Assembly: GCA_019694615.1 (NCBI GenBank)
Contig: JAIBBP010000281.1
Coordinates: 1 to 64,000 of the forward strand
Source of the DNA: Microthrixaceae bacterium
GTDB taxonomy: Bacteria; Actinomycetota; Acidimicrobiia; Acidimicrobiales; Microtrichaceae
Direction of reading: 5' to 3'
Length of the DNA: 64,000 nucleotides
The notes beneath the pieces are model-generated. The model ran no database searches, had not been told where the DNA came from, and saw only the letters and a program-made list of their open reading frames with translations. Of this stretch, positions 33,802 through 40,734 are shown in pieces (the stretch's first letter is position 1; each line of letters opens with the position of its first letter). A program made the translations under genes and the position numbers.

Positions 33802-35178
33802 TCATGCGAGGGAGCTGACCAGCTCCCACAGCGCTACGACGTGGTGACGTTCCGTGTGGTGGGACCCGACACAGATGCGCATCGCCTTCCTCCCGTCGAG
33901 AACGGTCGGCGTCACCTGGGCCGCCCCGGAGGCGTTGATGGCCTCCACCAACGCCTCCGTCGCCTCGTCGCCGGCGCGATGGGCGATGCACACGAGGTTC
34001 ATCGAACGGGGCGCGAGCAGCTCGAACCGGTCGTCGGCTCGCACCCAGGACTCGACTTCGGTCGCCCACTCGATGTGGCGACCGATCATGTCGGCGATTG
34101 CGTCGACACCGTCGAGGCGCAGCACGAACCATGCTTTGAGGGCGCGGAACCGACGGCCCAACGGCACCTGCCAGTCCCGGTAGTCGATCACCGCTCCGGA
34201 CTGTGCCTGAGCTGTTCGCAGGTACGCGGGTTGGATCGACAACGCCTCGATGAGCGGCCCGCGGTCCCGAACCCAGAAGAAGGAGCAGTCGAAACCGACG
34301 CCCATCCACTTGTGGCCGTTGGTGGTGTAGCTGTCGGCCAGGTCGAGCCCGTCGTTCACCCAGCGGAGTTCGGGCGCCAACGCCGCGACTCCGCACATGG
34401 CTCCATCGACGTGGAGCCACGCCCCTGACGCGGCACAGATCGGTGCGAGGTCGACGACCGGGTCGAACGCCTCCGACGAGGTCGAACCGGCGTTGGCGCA
34501 CACGAAGAACGGTGTGAGGCCGGCGGCGACATCGCTCTCAATGGCGCGGCGAAGGGCGTCGGGGCGCATCGCGAATGCCTCGTCGTGGTCGACAACGCGG
34601 ATCTGGTCGGCACCGATACCGGCGATGCGCAACCCCTTCTCGATGGAGGAGTGAGCCTGCGCGGTGCAGTATGCGACGAGCTGGGCGGGCAACGCACCGA
34701 GCGCCGTCGCCCGGGTACGCGCCGCGAGGATGGCGCACAGCGTGGAACTCGACGCGCTGTCCTGGATGACTCCGTTGCCGACGAAGTGCTCCGGCAACCC
34801 GAGGAGCTCGACCATCCAGTCGAGTACGAGCGTCTCGACCTCAGTCACTGCCGGGCTCGTCGCCCAGCTGAACCCGTTGACCCCGAGCCCGGAGCTGACG
34901 AGATCGCCCAGTATCGACGAGAAGGTCGTGTTCGCCGGGAAGAAGGCGAAGAAGTTCGGCGACTGCCAATGGGTGAGTCCGTCCATGACCGGCCCGTCGA
35001 GGTCGGAGAGGACTGCGTCGAACGGTTCCGGTGCCGCCGGTGGATTCGCGGCGAGACGATCTCGGACCTCGCCAGGTTGCACCTGGGAGAGCACCGGCCG
35101 GTCGCCGACGTTCGCGTGGTAGTCGGCGATCCAGTCGATCAGGAGGTGTCCGGCCTTGCGGAACTCATCGGGCGTCAC
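33802..35178 (-). CDS. Group II PLP-dependent decarboxylase (aromatic amino acid type)
   Basis: 458 residues from GTG 35178. Fold-type I decarboxylase: SPNFFAFFPANTTFSSILGDL near residue 72, HVDGAMCG with the PLP aspartate near 260, and PLP lysine K290 in TTNGHKWMGVGFDCSFFWV. The usual motif is NPHKW; Pro is Gly here. Related enzymes decarboxylate aromatic amino acids to amines or act as aldehyde synthases. GTG overlaps the VOC stop (GTGA). It is last in the minus-strand ketosynthase/exporter cluster or a separate VOC-decarboxylase pair. Confidence 0.85.
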   Translation of the reverse strand: MTPDEFRKAGHLLIDWIADYHANVGDRPVLSQVQPGEVRDRLAANPPAAPEPFDAVLSDLDGPVMDGLTHWQSPNFFAFFPANTTFSSILGDLVSSGLGVNGFSWATSPAVTEVETLVLDWMVELLGLPEHFVGNGVIQDSASSSTLCAILAARTRATALGALPAQLVAYCTAQAHSSIEKGLRIAGIGADQIRVVDHDEAFAMRPDALRRAIESDVAAGLTPFFVCANAGSTSSEAFDPVVDLAPICAASGAWLHVDGAMCGVAALAPELRWVNDGLDLADSYTTNGHKWMGVGFDCSFFWVRDRGPLIEALSIQPAYLRTAQAQSGAVIDYRDWQVPLGRRFRALKAWFVLRLDGVDAIADMIGRHIEWATEVESWVRADDRFELLAPRSMNLVCIAHRAGDEATEALVEAINASGAAQVTPTVLDGRKAMRICVGSHHTERHHVVALWELVSSLA

Positions 35179-35552
35179 GGTTCTACGATGCAGAACTCGT
35201 GACCTTCGGGGTCGGCGAGCACGACGAAGGTGCCCGCGAGGTCGGTGACCGGATCTCCGAGACGAGAGGCACCGAGGTCGATGGCACGCTCCACGGTCGC
35301 CTCGATGTCGGCGGCACCGAGATCGAGGTGTAGGCGGACCTTGCCGGTCTTGGCCTCTGGCACCTTCTGGAACGCGATGCGTACGCCGTCGGCGTCGGCG
35401 GGACCACCCCCGCGCGTGGCCGGCTCGATCCATGTCCACTCCTCGTCGAAGGTGTGGAGCGAACAGTCCAGCAGGTCGGCGTAGAAGCGCCCGAGCAAGG
35501 CGGGCTCTGCGCAATCGACGACGACCTCGGCCAGATGCACGACGACGGTCAC
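35175..35552 (-). CDS. VOC/glyoxalase-like domain protein
   Basis: 125 residues from GTG 35552, with a GGAGAGGA ribosome-binding site. Two beta-alpha-beta-beta-beta halves (HLAEVVVDCAEPALLGRFYADLL and LHLDLGAADIEATVERAIDLGA) ending VVLADPEGHEFCIVEP are typical of the VOC fold. The family includes dioxygenases, isomerases and drug-binding proteins. Its close coupling to the decarboxylase suggests a related task. Confidence 0.8.
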   Translation of the reverse strand: MTVVVHLAEVVVDCAEPALLGRFYADLLDCSLHTFDEEWTWIEPATRGGGPADADGVRIAFQKVPEAKTGKVRLHLDLGAADIEATVERAIDLGASRLGDPVTDLAGTFVVLADPEGHEFCIVEP

Positions 35553-35619
35553 GATGGGTCCTCTCCAAACGGGGGTCTTCCCGGCGACGCTAGACCACGC
35601 GTGGCGCGCCCTCCCCCGG

Positions 35620-37932
35620 TTACAGCGTTCGTCCGCGCCGGTCGGCGCGTGCGCCCGCGATGGCCAGTCCCGCCGTTCCGAACACCACGTCAGATCCGAG
35701 CGCGATCAACAGCACGAGAGAACCCATCACACCGATCGTCCGGTTGGTCGGAAAGCCGGACACACCGAGGGCGAGGAACGACGCGATCAGCACCGCCGAC
35801 GACGACACCATCGCCCGTCGAACGGTTGCGAGGGCCTCGTCGAGGGCGGCGCGTGACGAGGTGTGTGTCGGCCGTAGCTCGCGGTAGCGGTTGAGGATGT
35901 GCACGGTGTCGTCCGCGGCGAGGCCCATGGCGACGCAGAACACCACTCCGGCAACGGGGTCGAGCGTTTCCTTGACCAGGGTGTAGATGGCGAGTCCGAC
36001 CGAGATCGGGACGACGTTGGGCAGCAACGCGACCAGCGCCAACGTGATGCTCCGGAAAGCGACGCCGATCGCGATCACGATCAGAGCAACGGCGATGATC
36101 GTGGCGAGGATCAGCTCTCTGCTCAGCTCGTTCATCCCCGCGTAGGCCACCGGCGCCTCGCCGGTCACCTGCACGTCGATGCCGGTGCCGGCGAACAACT
36201 CAGCGCCCTCCGCGTCGATTCGCTCGGCGAGATGCACGATGTCGGTCGAGCCGGTGTCGCGATGGAAGCCGCGCAGCCTGGTCCACGACCGGTCGTCGGT
36301 GAGCACGCGGGCGAGTGCGCCGCTTCGATCGATCGAACCGAAGCCGTCGAGGTAGGTCAAGACCTCGGCGTCGGTTGTAGGAGCGGGGATGCCAAGGTCG
36401 GCCATCGCGGAGAAGGCCGACGGCAACCCCACCGTTCGTATGCCTTCGTCGTCGGACAGCCAGTCGCGCAGGCGTTGCATTCGTTCGATTGTGTCGAGGC
36501 GCTCGAACGCCCCCGATTCACCGCGAAGGCTGATCTCGATCGGCACGATGCCGGCCAGCCGCGAGTCGACGAGTGCATTGCCGACGCTGGTCGGCCGGTC
36601 GGAGTTCAGCATGCCCGACAGCGAGTAGTCGTACCGGGCCGTCATCGAAACGAGCACCGACCCGGCGACGAGAGCGAGGCCGATCGCGTACACGACCCGT
36701 GATGTTCCGGCCTGCGTCAGGCGGGTTGCGACCGCGCCGGCGGGTCGGGTGTGATCCGTGAGATAGCGGGCCGGCGGTTCGCTGCGCCGCAGGACGAGGA
36801 GTGCCGGCACGGCGACCGACGTCGAGACGAAACAGAACCCGATACCGGCCGCGAGGTAGAGCCCGAACTCGTGGAGGATCGACATCTTCGCGGTGAGGAG
36901 CGATACGAACCCGATGGCGTTGGTGGCGGTGCACACGACCGCGGCGCGGCTGACCCGTTCGAGGGTGGTGCGGGCGGCCGTCTCCGGGTCCGCCCCGGCG
37001 GCGCGCTCGCGGTAGAACCGGTGGACTAGGTGGGTCGCCGTGGCGACGACGACACCCATCAGCAGCACGGGGTAAACGATCGTCACCTGGTTGATGTCGT
37101 CACCGGCGAGACCGATTACGCCGGCAGTGCACACGATCGACACAACGATGGCGACCATCGGCGCGATCACGGCGATTGGCCGCCGGAAGTACCACCACAA
37201 CAGCAGCGCCATCATCAGGGTCGCCAGCGGTGAGAGTTTGAGCAGGTCGCCCTGCATCTCGGAGATCGCGGCGATCCGGGTGAAGGCGACCCCGGCGTAG
37301 TGAACGCGGACGGAGGCATCGGTTCGTCCGATCTCCCGATCGACGATCGCGCGGAACTCGTCCGCAGGCCCGGTGACCTCCTCATAGGAGTTGTACTTGG
37401 CCGCAAGGTTGCCGACGACGAGTGTGGTGCGACCGTCAGGGGAGATGAGGTTGCCGGGGCCGAGGTCGCTCCGGGCTGCGAACTCGATGCGCTGGTCCAA
37501 CGGAAGGTCGGCGGTTTCGTCGGAGAACGCCGGGCCGAAACGCAACCCGATGTCGGGATCGGGCGAGCCGTCGTCGAGGCCCGGTCGGGCGACGTTCAGC
37601 GTGGTGACGCTGTCGACATGCTCGACCTCGGCCATGTCGGCGACTGCGGTCGAGATGCGGCCGACCGCCGCGAACATCGCCTCGCTCGGTCGGTCAGCAT
37701 CGAGCACGGCGACGAGGAGCCCGTCGTCGGCCCCGAAGGTCGTGCGGTACTCCTCGCGAAACCGGGCGTCGGCCGAACTCGTGCTGAAGAGCGCGGCGAA
37801 GTCATTGTCGAGACGGACGTCGCGGGCGCCGACGCCGAACGCGACAGTGAGCAGCGCCAGAAGCGCCAGTGCCTGCTTGGGGCGGCCGGTGATCCAGCCG
37901 GCGACGCGCCTCGCAACCGTGGTGACGCTCAC
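35620..37932 (-). CDS. RND/MMPL-family exporter (HAE3-like)
   Basis: 770 residues from GTG 37932. Twelve membrane segments in two halves; TM1 (ALALLALLTVAFGVG) is followed by the large external loop, then a six-helix block containing MALLLWWYFRRP and GLAGDDINQVTIVYPVLLMGVVVATATHLVHRFYRE. The second half has GVVFCVAMGLAADDTVHILNRYRELRP, typical of MMPL/sterol-sensing exporters. These move lipids or hydrophobic metabolites across the membrane. Its start overlaps the upstream 301-aa gene as GTGA, tying it to the ketosynthase operon. Confidence 0.9.
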   Translation of the reverse strand: MSVTTVARRVAGWITGRPKQALALLALLTVAFGVGARDVRLDNDFAALFSTSSADARFREEYRTTFGADDGLLVAVLDADRPSEAMFAAVGRISTAVADMAEVEHVDSVTTLNVARPGLDDGSPDPDIGLRFGPAFSDETADLPLDQRIEFAARSDLGPGNLISPDGRTTLVVGNLAAKYNSYEEVTGPADEFRAIVDREIGRTDASVRVHYAGVAFTRIAAISEMQGDLLKLSPLATLMMALLLWWYFRRPIAVIAPMVAIVVSIVCTAGVIGLAGDDINQVTIVYPVLLMGVVVATATHLVHRFYRERAAGADPETAARTTLERVSRAAVVCTATNAIGFVSLLTAKMSILHEFGLYLAAGIGFCFVSTSVAVPALLVLRRSEPPARYLTDHTRPAGAVATRLTQAGTSRVVYAIGLALVAGSVLVSMTARYDYSLSGMLNSDRPTSVGNALVDSRLAGIVPIEISLRGESGAFERLDTIERMQRLRDWLSDDEGIRTVGLPSAFSAMADLGIPAPTTDAEVLTYLDGFGSIDRSGALARVLTDDRSWTRLRGFHRDTGSTDIVHLAERIDAEGAELFAGTGIDVQVTGEAPVAYAGMNELSRELILATIIAVALIVIAIGVAFRSITLALVALLPNVVPISVGLAIYTLVKETLDPVAGVVFCVAMGLAADDTVHILNRYRELRPTHTSSRAALDEALATVRRAMVSSSAVLIASFLALGVSGFPTNRTIGVMGSLVLLIALGSDVVFGTAGLAIAGARADRRGRTL

Positions 37933-38834
37933 GCCGCGATGGCGTGCTCGGACAGCTGGGTCAGGCGGGTGTGGGCGTACTCGTGCACCATGATGTGCCA
38001 CAGCAGATCACGGGCGACGTCGCCGGTCTGGCCCAGCCAGTTGGTGAACCGGACCGGAGTCCACGTTCTGAACGTCGGGTCGCCCGTGAGTTCGGTGATC
38101 GCGCCGAGCAGCGACTCGTCCAACTGGAAGCTGTTGATCGCCCGCTCAGCGGTCTGCCAATCCATGTACCAGGCCAGCACCAGGCACATGAGCGACAGCG
38201 AGGTCTGCATGTCGAGGTTCAACCAGCGACGACGGCCGGCCTCGACATCGAGCTCCGGGATGCCGAGCATCGAGAAGTCGAGGTCGCCAAGGGGTCGGGT
38301 GAACAGGTCGGCCTGCTTCGACTCGCCGAGGTCGATGAACAGGTTGAAGATGTTGACGTCGTGCAACACGACGGCGTTCATGCCGTGGTGGTCGCCGAGT
38401 TCGGGAGTGGTCGTCGGGAGAAGGTCGACCTCCTCGACGTCGTCGGCGCCGCTGTTGCGGGCGACGAAGTTGACGAGTTGCGTCTCGATCACGAAGTGAC
38501 GGAGCACCATCTCGGCGGTTTCAGGTGAGCAGAACCGGACGAGCAGAGGAGCGGTGACCCGGGACAAACCGGCGGGCGAACCGAGGCGGCGGAGGCCGGG
38601 AAAACGTTTGATCGTCAACAACACCGTGATCAGGAACTGGCAGATCGGGCGAACGACGGGCGCGAGGAAATGCCGCGATGGGCGGCGAAGGTTGCGGATC
38701 TGAGAGGCCCGACTGTCGTTCGGAACCGGCAGCATCGGGTCGAGCGCGATCGACTCCCACAACGTGGGATTGCGCCGGTCGCGTGGGCCCAACTCCAGCT
38801 GATCGCGAAGGGACAGGTCGCTCGTCTGAACCAT
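37929..38834 (-). CDS. Unrecognised 301-aa protein in ketosynthase operon
   Basis: 301 residues from ATG 38834 (stop/start TGATG with the diiron gene). I recognise no family. It has a hydrophobic stretch near residues 60-78 (LAPVVRPICQFLITVLLTI) and a highly patterned second half with several His residues (FVIETQLVNF, DHHGMNAVVLHDVN, LLWHIMVHEYAHTRL). The final HxxxHEYAH cluster and the D-H-H-G motif could bind metal. Perhaps a membrane-associated processing enzyme, inferred only from its fixed position between the diiron enzyme and exporter. Confidence 0.7.
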   Translation of the reverse strand: MVQTSDLSLRDQLELGPRDRRNPTLWESIALDPMLPVPNDSRASQIRNLRRPSRHFLAPVVRPICQFLITVLLTIKRFPGLRRLGSPAGLSRVTAPLLVRFCSPETAEMVLRHFVIETQLVNFVARNSGADDVEEVDLLPTTTPELGDHHGMNAVVLHDVNIFNLFIDLGESKQADLFTRPLGDLDFSMLGIPELDVEAGRRRWLNLDMQTSLSLMCLVLAWYMDWQTAERAINSFQLDESLLGAITELTGDPTFRTWTPVRFTNWLGQTGDVARDLLWHIMVHEYAHTRLTQLSEHAIAA

Positions 38835-39538
38835 CAGATGTTGCCGATCTCTTCGAGTTGGAGCGCGTAGAGGCGGGCGACGATCTTGGCCGTGCGCACC
38901 AGTCGCTCGGCGAGCGCCATGTCGATGAGGGGGTGGCTGAGGATCATCCGCAGCTTCTCGTAGTGCGAGTCGTCGTTGACGCCGTGGTAGGCGAGGAACG
39001 ACACCTGCTCCTCCTCCAGGCCCAGAAGCTCCTGGATGCGCGCCGCCCAGCCGGCGGCCTTCGACGAGCCGAGTCCTTCGATGATGAACATCGCCCCGAA
39101 CAGGTCGAGCGGGTCGGGCTTGGCGGCCTGGTGGAACATGAACGCGCTGAACGCCTCCGAGCCGATGTTCTTCGGTTGGCTCAGCATCGTGGCGAGATCG
39201 CCGCCCACCGACACGTAGTTCTGTTCGAGCATCTGATAGTCGGTGTGCTCCTCCGCGGCGTGCTTGATCAGCAGCGACCGGACCGGGAACAGCTCGATTG
39301 ACATCGACGACGCCGCGAGCGCGATCCAACGGCCTCCCTCGACCACCTGCTGGCGCAGGTTGAGGAGCAGTTCGCGGTAGTCGTCGAGGGTGACGGTGCC
39401 CTCGTCGAGGCGACGGACCAGCGGCACCTGGTCGAGGCGGGACTCGAAGTCGTCCCACACCTTCTCCAACTCGCGGGCGAGGTACTGCGTGACCTCGGTG
39501 CCGTCGCGGCCGAAGTCGGCGCCGAGCGGCGAGGTCAT
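38834..39538 (-). CDS. Heme-oxygenase-like diiron protein (HDO superfamily)
   Basis: 234 residues, mostly helical. The set E67, H98, E154, H185, D189, H192 follows the HDO order E...H...E...H-x3-D-x2-H, with H185-GVN-D189-DS-H192 an exact fit. HDO enzymes such as SznF, UndA and BesC perform N-oxygenation, decarboxylation to alkenes or oxidative C-C cleavage. Position between a ketosynthase and exporter suggests it modifies a fatty-acid-derived product. ATG overlaps the ketosynthase stop as ATGA. Confidence 0.85.
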   Translation of the reverse strand: MTSPLGADFGRDGTEVTQYLARELEKVWDDFESRLDQVPLVRRLDEGTVTLDDYRELLLNLRQQVVEGGRWIALAASSMSIELFPVRSLLIKHAAEEHTDYQMLEQNYVSVGGDLATMLSQPKNIGSEAFSAFMFHQAAKPDPLDLFGAMFIIEGLGSSKAAGWAARIQELLGLEEEQVSFLAYHGVNDDSHYEKLRMILSHPLIDMALAERLVRTAKIVARLYALQLEEIGNI

Positions 39539-40734
39539 CGAACCACCTCCGGTTTGGAGTCGGGTGCGACGCAGGTGAACTGCATGACGCTCATGACGAA
39601 TCGTCCGGACTCGGGTACGAAGGCGAGGATGCGGTCGCCCTCCTTGAAGCGGCCTGACGACATGGCCTCCTCCAACATGATGAACATGGACGCGGACCCG
39701 GTGTTGCCGCGGGTCGTCAGGTTGGTGAACCAGCGATCCTCGGGGATGTCCAGGCCGATCTCCGAAAGGCCGACCGAGAGGAAGTCCTTGAAGAAGTACG
39801 AGCTCATGTGGGGGAGGAACCAGTCGTACCCCAGGTCGAGGTCGACCCGACCGGATTTGATGAGTCGCTTCGCCTCGTCCAGCCCGACGGGAAGAAGCGA
39901 CTCGGCGAGGAGTTGGGTGTCCTGGCGGATGACCATCATCCCGGCTTTGTCGGCTTCCGTAGCGTTGTCGACGCTGAGCCACGTGTTGCCGATCGAGGGG
40001 TTCCGGGGATCGGACGTGCCGAGGAACATGCAGGTGGGGTGGGCGTTGGCGTAGCTGGTGAGCTCGATCCAGTCGACGCGGAGCGACAGTTCGGTCGGAT
40101 GGGGCTCGGACTCGAACAGCACCGAACCGGCACCGTCGGACAGCATCCAGCGGAGGAAGTCGGCGTTGAAGTACTGGTAGGCCGTGGCCACGTCCTGGCG
40201 GTCCTCAGCGAGGGCGCTCTCCTGCTCGAACCGGCTCGCCTTCATCATCGAGCTGGGCAGCTCCGACGCGACGGCGATGGCCCGGTCGTGGTCGCCGAGG
40301 CGAATCGAGTTGTTCGCGGCGCGCATCGCCGCGGCTCCGGAGGCGCAGATTCCCGACGCGGACAGGATCTCCATCGGCGCCGCCGTGGGGTCGTCCTCGG
40401 CGAGGCGCCCGTGCACCATCGAAGCGAAGCCCGGCATCAGGAGGTCGGGCATCGTGGTACCGGCCGACAACATGCCGACTTCGCCGAGGCCGATGCCTCG
40501 TTTGGCGAGCGTGCGCTGCACCGCTTCCGCTGCGAGGTCCTGGTTGAGGTGGGTCTGGTTGCCCTGTTCATCGAGGGCGTAGTGACGGTTGGTGATGCCG
40601 TTCGACTCGAGAATGCGCTCCCGGAACCGCGAGGGAGCGCCCCCCACGAACCCGAGTCGCGACTCCATCTCGTCGTTGGAGACCCCGGGGCCTGGAAGGA
40701 AAGCGCCGAGTGAGGTGATGTAGCTCTGCCGCAT
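39535..40734 (-). CDS. StlD/DarB-type beta-ketoacyl synthase III
   Basis: 399 residues. KASIII triad C130 (SASGICASGAAA), H309 (YDWFLPHMSSYFF) and N344 (TRGNTGSASM). The openings PGPGVSNDEMESRLG and NGITNRHYALD, and FLRWMLSDGAGSVLFE, are the pattern of StlD/DarB ketosynthases, which condense beta-ketoacyl units toward dialkylresorcinols or cyclohexanediones, rather than the housekeeping FabH. No ACP or DarA-type aromatase is in the window. First gene of the operon; start set by the leaderless -10 at 40743. Confidence 0.85.
   Translation of the reverse strand: MRQSYITSLGAFLPGPGVSNDEMESRLGFVGGAPSRFRERILESNGITNRHYALDEQGNQTHLNQDLAAEAVQRTLAKRGIGLGEVGMLSAGTTMPDLLMPGFASMVHGRLAEDDPTAAPMEILSASGICASGAAAMRAANNSIRLGDHDRAIAVASELPSSMMKASRFEQESALAEDRQDVATAYQYFNADFLRWMLSDGAGSVLFESEPHPTELSLRVDWIELTSYANAHPTCMFLGTSDPRNPSIGNTWLSVDNATEADKAGMMVIRQDTQLLAESLLPVGLDEAKRLIKSGRVDLDLGYDWFLPHMSSYFFKDFLSVGLSEIGLDIPEDRWFTNLTTRGNTGSASMFIMLEEAMSSGRFKEGDRILAFVPESGRFVMSVMQFTCVAPDSKPEVVR

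Follow-up and report, generated by a model that had tools for sequence, protein, structure and literature searches.

Gene organization of the locus

The genes considered here lie in a stretch of 64,000 nucleotides (the window) at the start of a contig from a Microthrixaceae bacterium (JAIBBP010000281.1, assembly GCA_019694615.1). All are on the minus strand. The first encodes a StlD/DarB-type ketosynthase of the beta-ketoacyl-acyl carrier protein synthase III (KAS III) fold family (positions 39535-40734, 399 aa), with C130, H309 and N344 as the catalytic residues. It is followed by genes for a heme-oxygenase-like diiron oxidase (HDO; 38834-39538, 234 aa) and a protein of the DUF6999 family (37929-38834, 301 aa). 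These three genes, referred to below as the trio, are the main subject. A fourth encodes an MMPL/HAE3-type transporter of the resistance-nodulation-division (RND) class (35620-37932, 770 aa).

An earlier note on this DNA had described four overlapping genes, and this has been corroborated by the gene calls and the junction sequences. The ketosynthase and HDO genes share an ATGA (...TTCGATGACC), the HDO and DUF6999 genes a TGATG (...ATCTGATGGTT) and the DUF6999 and RND genes a GTGA (...GCGGCGTGAGC). A scan of the locus for sigma-70 promoters found no site. The interval 33802-40734 had been taken to consist of these four genes only. All four are there, but a Glyoxalase_6 gene and a decarboxylase gene, described below, bring the number to six.

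Conservation of the trio and its neighbours

Is the trio more than a local arrangement? A scan of one genome per species with a single DUF6999 sequence returned nothing, and a profile built from a three-sequence alignment returned 78 loci. Two further genomes and the window bring the total to 81. The order ketosynthase-HDO-DUF6999 is kept in 80 of these, the exception being a locus with a partial DUF6999 gene (L087). The 83 trio loci that were aligned come from Actinomycetota, a metagenome-assembled genome (MAG) of Myxococcota and Pseudoalteromonas; a large plasmid of Pseudoalteromonas sp. THAF3 carries the three genes in the same order. One extra gene separates HDO from DUF6999 at L107, a locus in a MAG of the same class as the window whose binning is uncertain (6% contamination). 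Recurrence of the trio in the same order across phyla is far beyond chance.

The link between the first two genes is closer still. Ketosynthase and HDO form a single reading frame in 30 of 80 loci and in one additional genome, G356 (31/83). Such fusions are strong evidence that the two enzymes act in sequence. A maximum-likelihood tree groups the trio ketosynthases in one clade (support 92/81), barring the very long branch of L107. Within it the window sequence diverges from those of Actinomycetota and Myxococcota, whose joint clade has support of 98/97. Most of this inner clade consists of fused forms, with separate Micrococcales forms nested within it, and this reading of the tree suggests a single fusion that was later split. 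StlD and ketosynthases from Bacteroidales plasmids make up a separate supported group (98/95).

Since the trio loci had been found by way of DUF6999, a reverse test of linkage was needed. DUF6999 occurs in three of 296 Actinomycetota genomes, and the HDO subfamily occurs in exactly the same three. The ketosynthase is found in those three and in one more, where it lies inside a polyketide synthase (PKS) cluster. The control genome of Caulobacter vibrioides gave matches for all three families. Other phyla were sampled through one-genome-per-species contigs and plasmids. Within the class of the window DUF6999 is present in 7 of 395 genomes, and in none of 10 sampled family relatives, so its distribution is patchy. 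A search across genomes for co-occurrence of the four genes had been proposed as a check in the earlier note; the outcome (80/81 loci, the same three of 296 genomes) is that the trio is linked and not scattered. A literature match, the other thing that would have spoken against the note, did not turn up either: no paper describing a ketosynthase-HDO-DUF6999 set was found. The trio is real and conserved, and as a module of known enzyme kinds it is apparently undescribed. As a defence system it was considered and dropped, there being no PADLOC match.

Partial DUF6999 genes lacking both a ketosynthase and an HDO were seen on a Cellulomonas contig (L087:7965-8609) and a MAG contig (L112:11030-11404). 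The genome of the former also holds a full trio (L035). Both partial copies are probably remnants or assembly breaks.

The neighbours of the trio are far less constant. The RND transporter has clear MMPL domains (PF03176, 124.8 bits against a cut-off of 20.5, in two stretches). However, its score of 170 bits with the HAE3 model TIGR00921 is under the cut-off of 351.9. Could the exporter be integral, with the four genes forming one system that makes a product and exports it? The GTGA overlap of the DUF6999 and RND genes would fit, as would the predicted exporter that accompanies flexirubin clusters (PMC3992019). What speaks against this, and makes it very improbable, is that the RND gene is absent at every other trio locus examined, in flanks of up to about 8-10 kb. 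Because it accompanies the trio in the window only, the RND exporter is a local addition and not part of the core, contrary to the four-gene set of the earlier note.

Just downstream of the RND gene lie the genes for a Glyoxalase_6 protein of the vicinal oxygen chelate (VOC) fold (35175-35552, 125 aa; PF18029, 101 bits) and a pyridoxal phosphate (PLP)-dependent decarboxylase (33802-35178, about 458 aa from a GTG start; PF00282, 351 bits), which overlap by 4 bases (GTGA). The decarboxylase has a homologue close to the trio in only two Agromyces loci, where it lies on the upstream side instead of the downstream one, and the VOC protein has one in two Pseudactinotalea loci only. All three, RND, VOC and decarboxylase, were rejected as partners of the trio for lack of conservation. 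Clustering of all reading frames from the 81 loci revealed no other broadly shared neighbour. In particular, the trio has no acyl carrier protein (ACP), aromatase or reductase as a conserved neighbour, which agrees with the observation in the earlier note that an ACP, an aromatase and a ketoreductase are missing here.

Two less common neighbours deserve mention. A response-regulator gene is located upstream in 21 loci, about 2.7 kb from DUF6999 (for example L054:5277-6038 in Glycomyces), with a second conserved gene further upstream in 16 loci. Regulation of the trio by this response regulator is possible. The other is a histidine-rich small membrane protein of 185-194 aa, encoded upstream of the ketosynthase in Pseudoalteromonas (L095:12648-13205) and between HDO and DUF6999 in L107 (L107:3968-4552). 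The two copies are 49% identical and have no Pfam match. Relatives, some annotated as 'diguanylate cyclase', are found by themselves on plasmids of Pantoea, Erwinia, Azospirillum and others. This protein was not accepted as a fourth member of the core: searches of the window's own genome and of the other trio loci did not find it, and plasmids of many proteobacteria carry it without the trio.

The three proteins and a possible route to ring lipids

The ketosynthase is the most readily placed of the three proteins. Its best match in the PDB is StlD (5gk0, 303 bits), to which it is 42% identical over the full length, and the Cys-His-Asn triad of C130, H309 and N344 is invariant in 83 trio homologues. 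StlD/DarB-type enzymes convert two acyl thioesters, one beta-keto and the other alpha,beta-unsaturated, into a 2,5-dialkylcyclohexane-1,3-dione (PMC4578411), and DarB together with DarA, an aromatase (PMC3949708), suffices for dialkylresorcinol formation in a heterologous host, with no ACP dedicated to the pathway (PMC3992019). One alternative is that the trio ketosynthase makes a linear or pyrone-type product from two chains, by head-to-head condensation like that of OleA or PpyS, and that the HDO then turns the beta-keto acid into an enone or alkene by cleavage or desaturation. Head-to-head condensations are indeed carried out by ketosynthases of the same broad class (PMC4578411), and the HDO UndA turns fatty acids into alkenes (PMC13108848). 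However, this ketosynthase is far nearer to StlD than to the next solved ketosynthase (52 bits), and the alternative is distinctly unlikely.

StlD/DarB-type ketosynthase genes were also seen on Bacteroides, Prevotella and Phocaeicola plasmids (L115, L116 and L117). There they come immediately after a gene for a TetR or helix-turn-helix regulator, and neither an HDO nor a DUF6999 nor an annotated DarA gene adjoins them.

At two DarB-type loci without an HDO (L096 and L097) the ketosynthase adjoins a protein with the motif YSQ(T/S)GQL. No protein with this flavodoxin motif was found, by similarity to two actinobacterial examples, in the trio loci or in the window's own genome. The proposal in the earlier note that the locus is distinct from dialkylresorcinol clusters that use DarA is upheld to this extent. 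On the simplest reading of the absence of a DarA-like gene, the HDO takes over the role of DarA.

The L096 locus is a cluster on a linear Streptomyces plasmid (L096:7706-17113). It encodes an ACP, the DarB-type ketosynthase, the flavodoxin-motif protein, a flavin adenine dinucleotide (FAD) monooxygenase, an SCP2-domain protein, a KAS II, a P450, a further ACP and FabG. The cluster begins with genes that resemble a PKS locus in another genome (G150, locus L097).

The HDO assignment rests on structure more than on profile. The match to PF14518 is weak (32 bits). An AlphaFold model (mean predicted local distance difference test score, pLDDT, 94.4) retrieved heme-oxygenase-fold proteins throughout in a Foldseek search, among them 3dde (template-modelling score 0.84), CtCADD (0.79) and UndA (0.71). 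A heme-oxygenase-like helical fold is therefore supported, as judged from the model. Alignment with HDOs of the same order, 3dde and plasmid HDOs places E97, E154, H185, D189 and H192 at five of the six canonical ligand positions, with the HDO motif H185-x3-D189-x2-H192 among them. The sixth is where the earlier note erred in counting a full set. The canonical histidine of the first helix, three residues after E97, is an aspartate (D100) in 83 of 83 trio HDOs. One turn before E97 stands H93, which is a tyrosine in the plasmid HDOs and is a possible substitute ligand for the missing histidine. All seven residues (H93, E97, D100, E154, H185, D189 and H192) are invariant among the 83.

Another recurrent HDO operon lies on Citrobacter, Vibrio and Pseudoalteromonas plasmids (L131, L132 and L133). 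It encodes a 'thermostable hemolysin', an AMP-binding protein, an HDO with the canonical histidine present, a short-chain dehydrogenase/reductase and a hypothetical protein.

Functions are known for only about a dozen HDOs, and the reactions characterised are desaturation, C-C cleavage, N-oxygenation and rearrangements (PMC13108848). Known ligand sets are 3H/3C and 3H/4C, and there is a mononuclear form in which two ligands of the third core helix are lost. UndA converts a fatty acid to an alkene and CO2, and hydrogen abstraction at C3 is one proposed route (PMC13108848).

The third protein had been described as unrecognised. In fact, Pfam matches it as DUF6999 (PF22523, 213.5 bits against a gathering cut-off of 27, spanning profile positions 2-274 of 275). 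No mention of the family was found in a literature search. Its model is all-helical (pLDDT 84.8; predicted template-modelling score 0.85) and, taken as predicted, gave no significant match to the PDB or a viral library in a structure search. A profile search of PDB sequences gave no match, and a scan of IMG/VR with DUF6999 gave nothing. Nine residues (R112, H113, E117, H158, D159, D208, D239, H280 and E285) are identical in 83 of 83 copies, even in the divergent ones from Pseudoalteromonas and L107, and look like a metal or catalytic site.

Two simpler identities for DUF6999 were tried. It does not appear to be a distant HDO, as profile comparison gave no signal and the PDB matches from Foldseek, including PolF, TenA and UndA, have E values >0.6 and a root-mean-square deviation of about 20 Angstrom. 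Nor does it appear to be DarA, being all-helical whereas DarA-like proteins carry a flavodoxin motif.

How might the three proteins work together? The core would be a three-enzyme module supplied by ordinary fatty-acid metabolism. By analogy with its family, the ketosynthase would couple a beta-ketoacyl thioester with an alpha,beta-unsaturated one and close a 2,5-dialkylcyclohexane-1,3-dione, initially perhaps as the ring-carboxylate expected from family chemistry. The HDO would then oxidise this product. Their joint action is backed by the fusions, and the reaction itself is proposed. An UndA-like reaction is favoured, in which hydrogen would be removed beta to the carboxylate and CO2 lost, leaving a ring double bond. 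Tautomerisation would give a 2,5-dialkylresorcinol, with the HDO in place of the aromatase. The chain of steps up to oxidation of this ring product by the HDO, with aromatisation as the likeliest form, is given somewhat less than even confidence. DUF6999 may then modify the lipid further, probably in a metal-dependent manner, a tentative idea that comes from the invariant His/Asp/Glu set. Its constant presence suggests that the pathway probably goes beyond a plain resorcinol. In this genome only, the RND exporter may, speculatively, move the product out. Of the earlier proposal that a fatty-acid-derived product is condensed, oxidised and exported, what remains is a condensing ketosynthase and an oxidase acting with it, while the exporter falls away; as a whole that series of steps is inferred.

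Several observations weigh against aromatisation by the HDO. The ketosynthase scores 425.8 bits with the NCBIfam StlD/DarB model NF005293 and 364 bits with the DarB model NF053539, under the curated cut-offs of 450 and 550. Therefore, it is called StlD/DarB-type here and not a member of the StlD/DarB family. Its substrates and product are deduced from the family. The flavodoxin-like protein of L096 and L097 is presumably DarA-like, an identity based on the motif, and the empty search of the own genome for such a protein had no positive control. A plain resorcinol requires two genes only, yet DUF6999 is always there. Finally, the altered metal site means that the reaction of the HDO may differ from that of UndA.

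The last two points lead to another explanation. With the same ketosynthase chemistry, the HDO might hydroxylate or oxygenate the cyclohexanedione, the resorcinol or a side chain to give a hydroxylated or quinone-like lipid, and DUF6999 would complete a new scaffold. The altered ligand set of the HDO fits this, as does an obligatory third protein without a fold match and with an invariant His/Asp/Glu set. However, no oxygenated product is known, and the reactions in the HDO review are those listed above (PMC13108848). This explanation is unlikely, if less so than a linear or pyrone-type product. A broader statement is possible but rather doubtful: that this is an undescribed system in which a DarB-type ketosynthase passes its ring product directly to the HDO fused to it, whose metal site is rearranged, and in which DUF6999 represents a new family of enzymes with a novel fold, the three jointly making a new lipid scaffold.

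Significance and comparison with known systems

The trio looks like a previously unreported route to a fatty-acid-derived ring compound. If aromatisation or another oxidation of the ring by the HDO is true, a diiron enzyme would serve in the making of ring lipids, among which are pigments and signals between cells. The probable source of its substrate is also physically joined to the HDO, so that the problem of assigning its function becomes a two-gene expression test. DUF6999 gains a setting for tests of its function, and cultured genera, Microbacterium, Agromyces, Glycomyces and Demequina among them, carry the trio.

PpyS and OleA resemble the proposed system in that they need no type III PKS to condense two chains derived from fatty acids. 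However, they are further in sequence from the trio ketosynthase than StlD is, and an HDO or DUF6999 partner is absent from their description (PMC4578411). The DarA/DarB and StlD pathways of Chitinophaga, Flavobacterium and Photorhabdus are closer. They share with the trio a StlD/DarB-type ketosynthase with an intact triad and the expected fatty-acid substrates, and DarAB has no need of a dedicated ACP. The trio differs in that no DarA aromatase was found and an HDO and DUF6999 take its place, and in that its ketosynthases fall outside the StlD/Bacteroidales group of the tree and below the curated cut-offs. Lastly, the trio HDO is like UndA, CADD, SznF, PolF and BesC in its predicted heme-oxygenase-like fold and five canonical metal ligands. 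It is set apart from them by the aspartate that replaces the first-helix histidine in all 83 copies, by the invariant histidine upstream and by its fusion to a ketosynthase at 31 of 83 loci.

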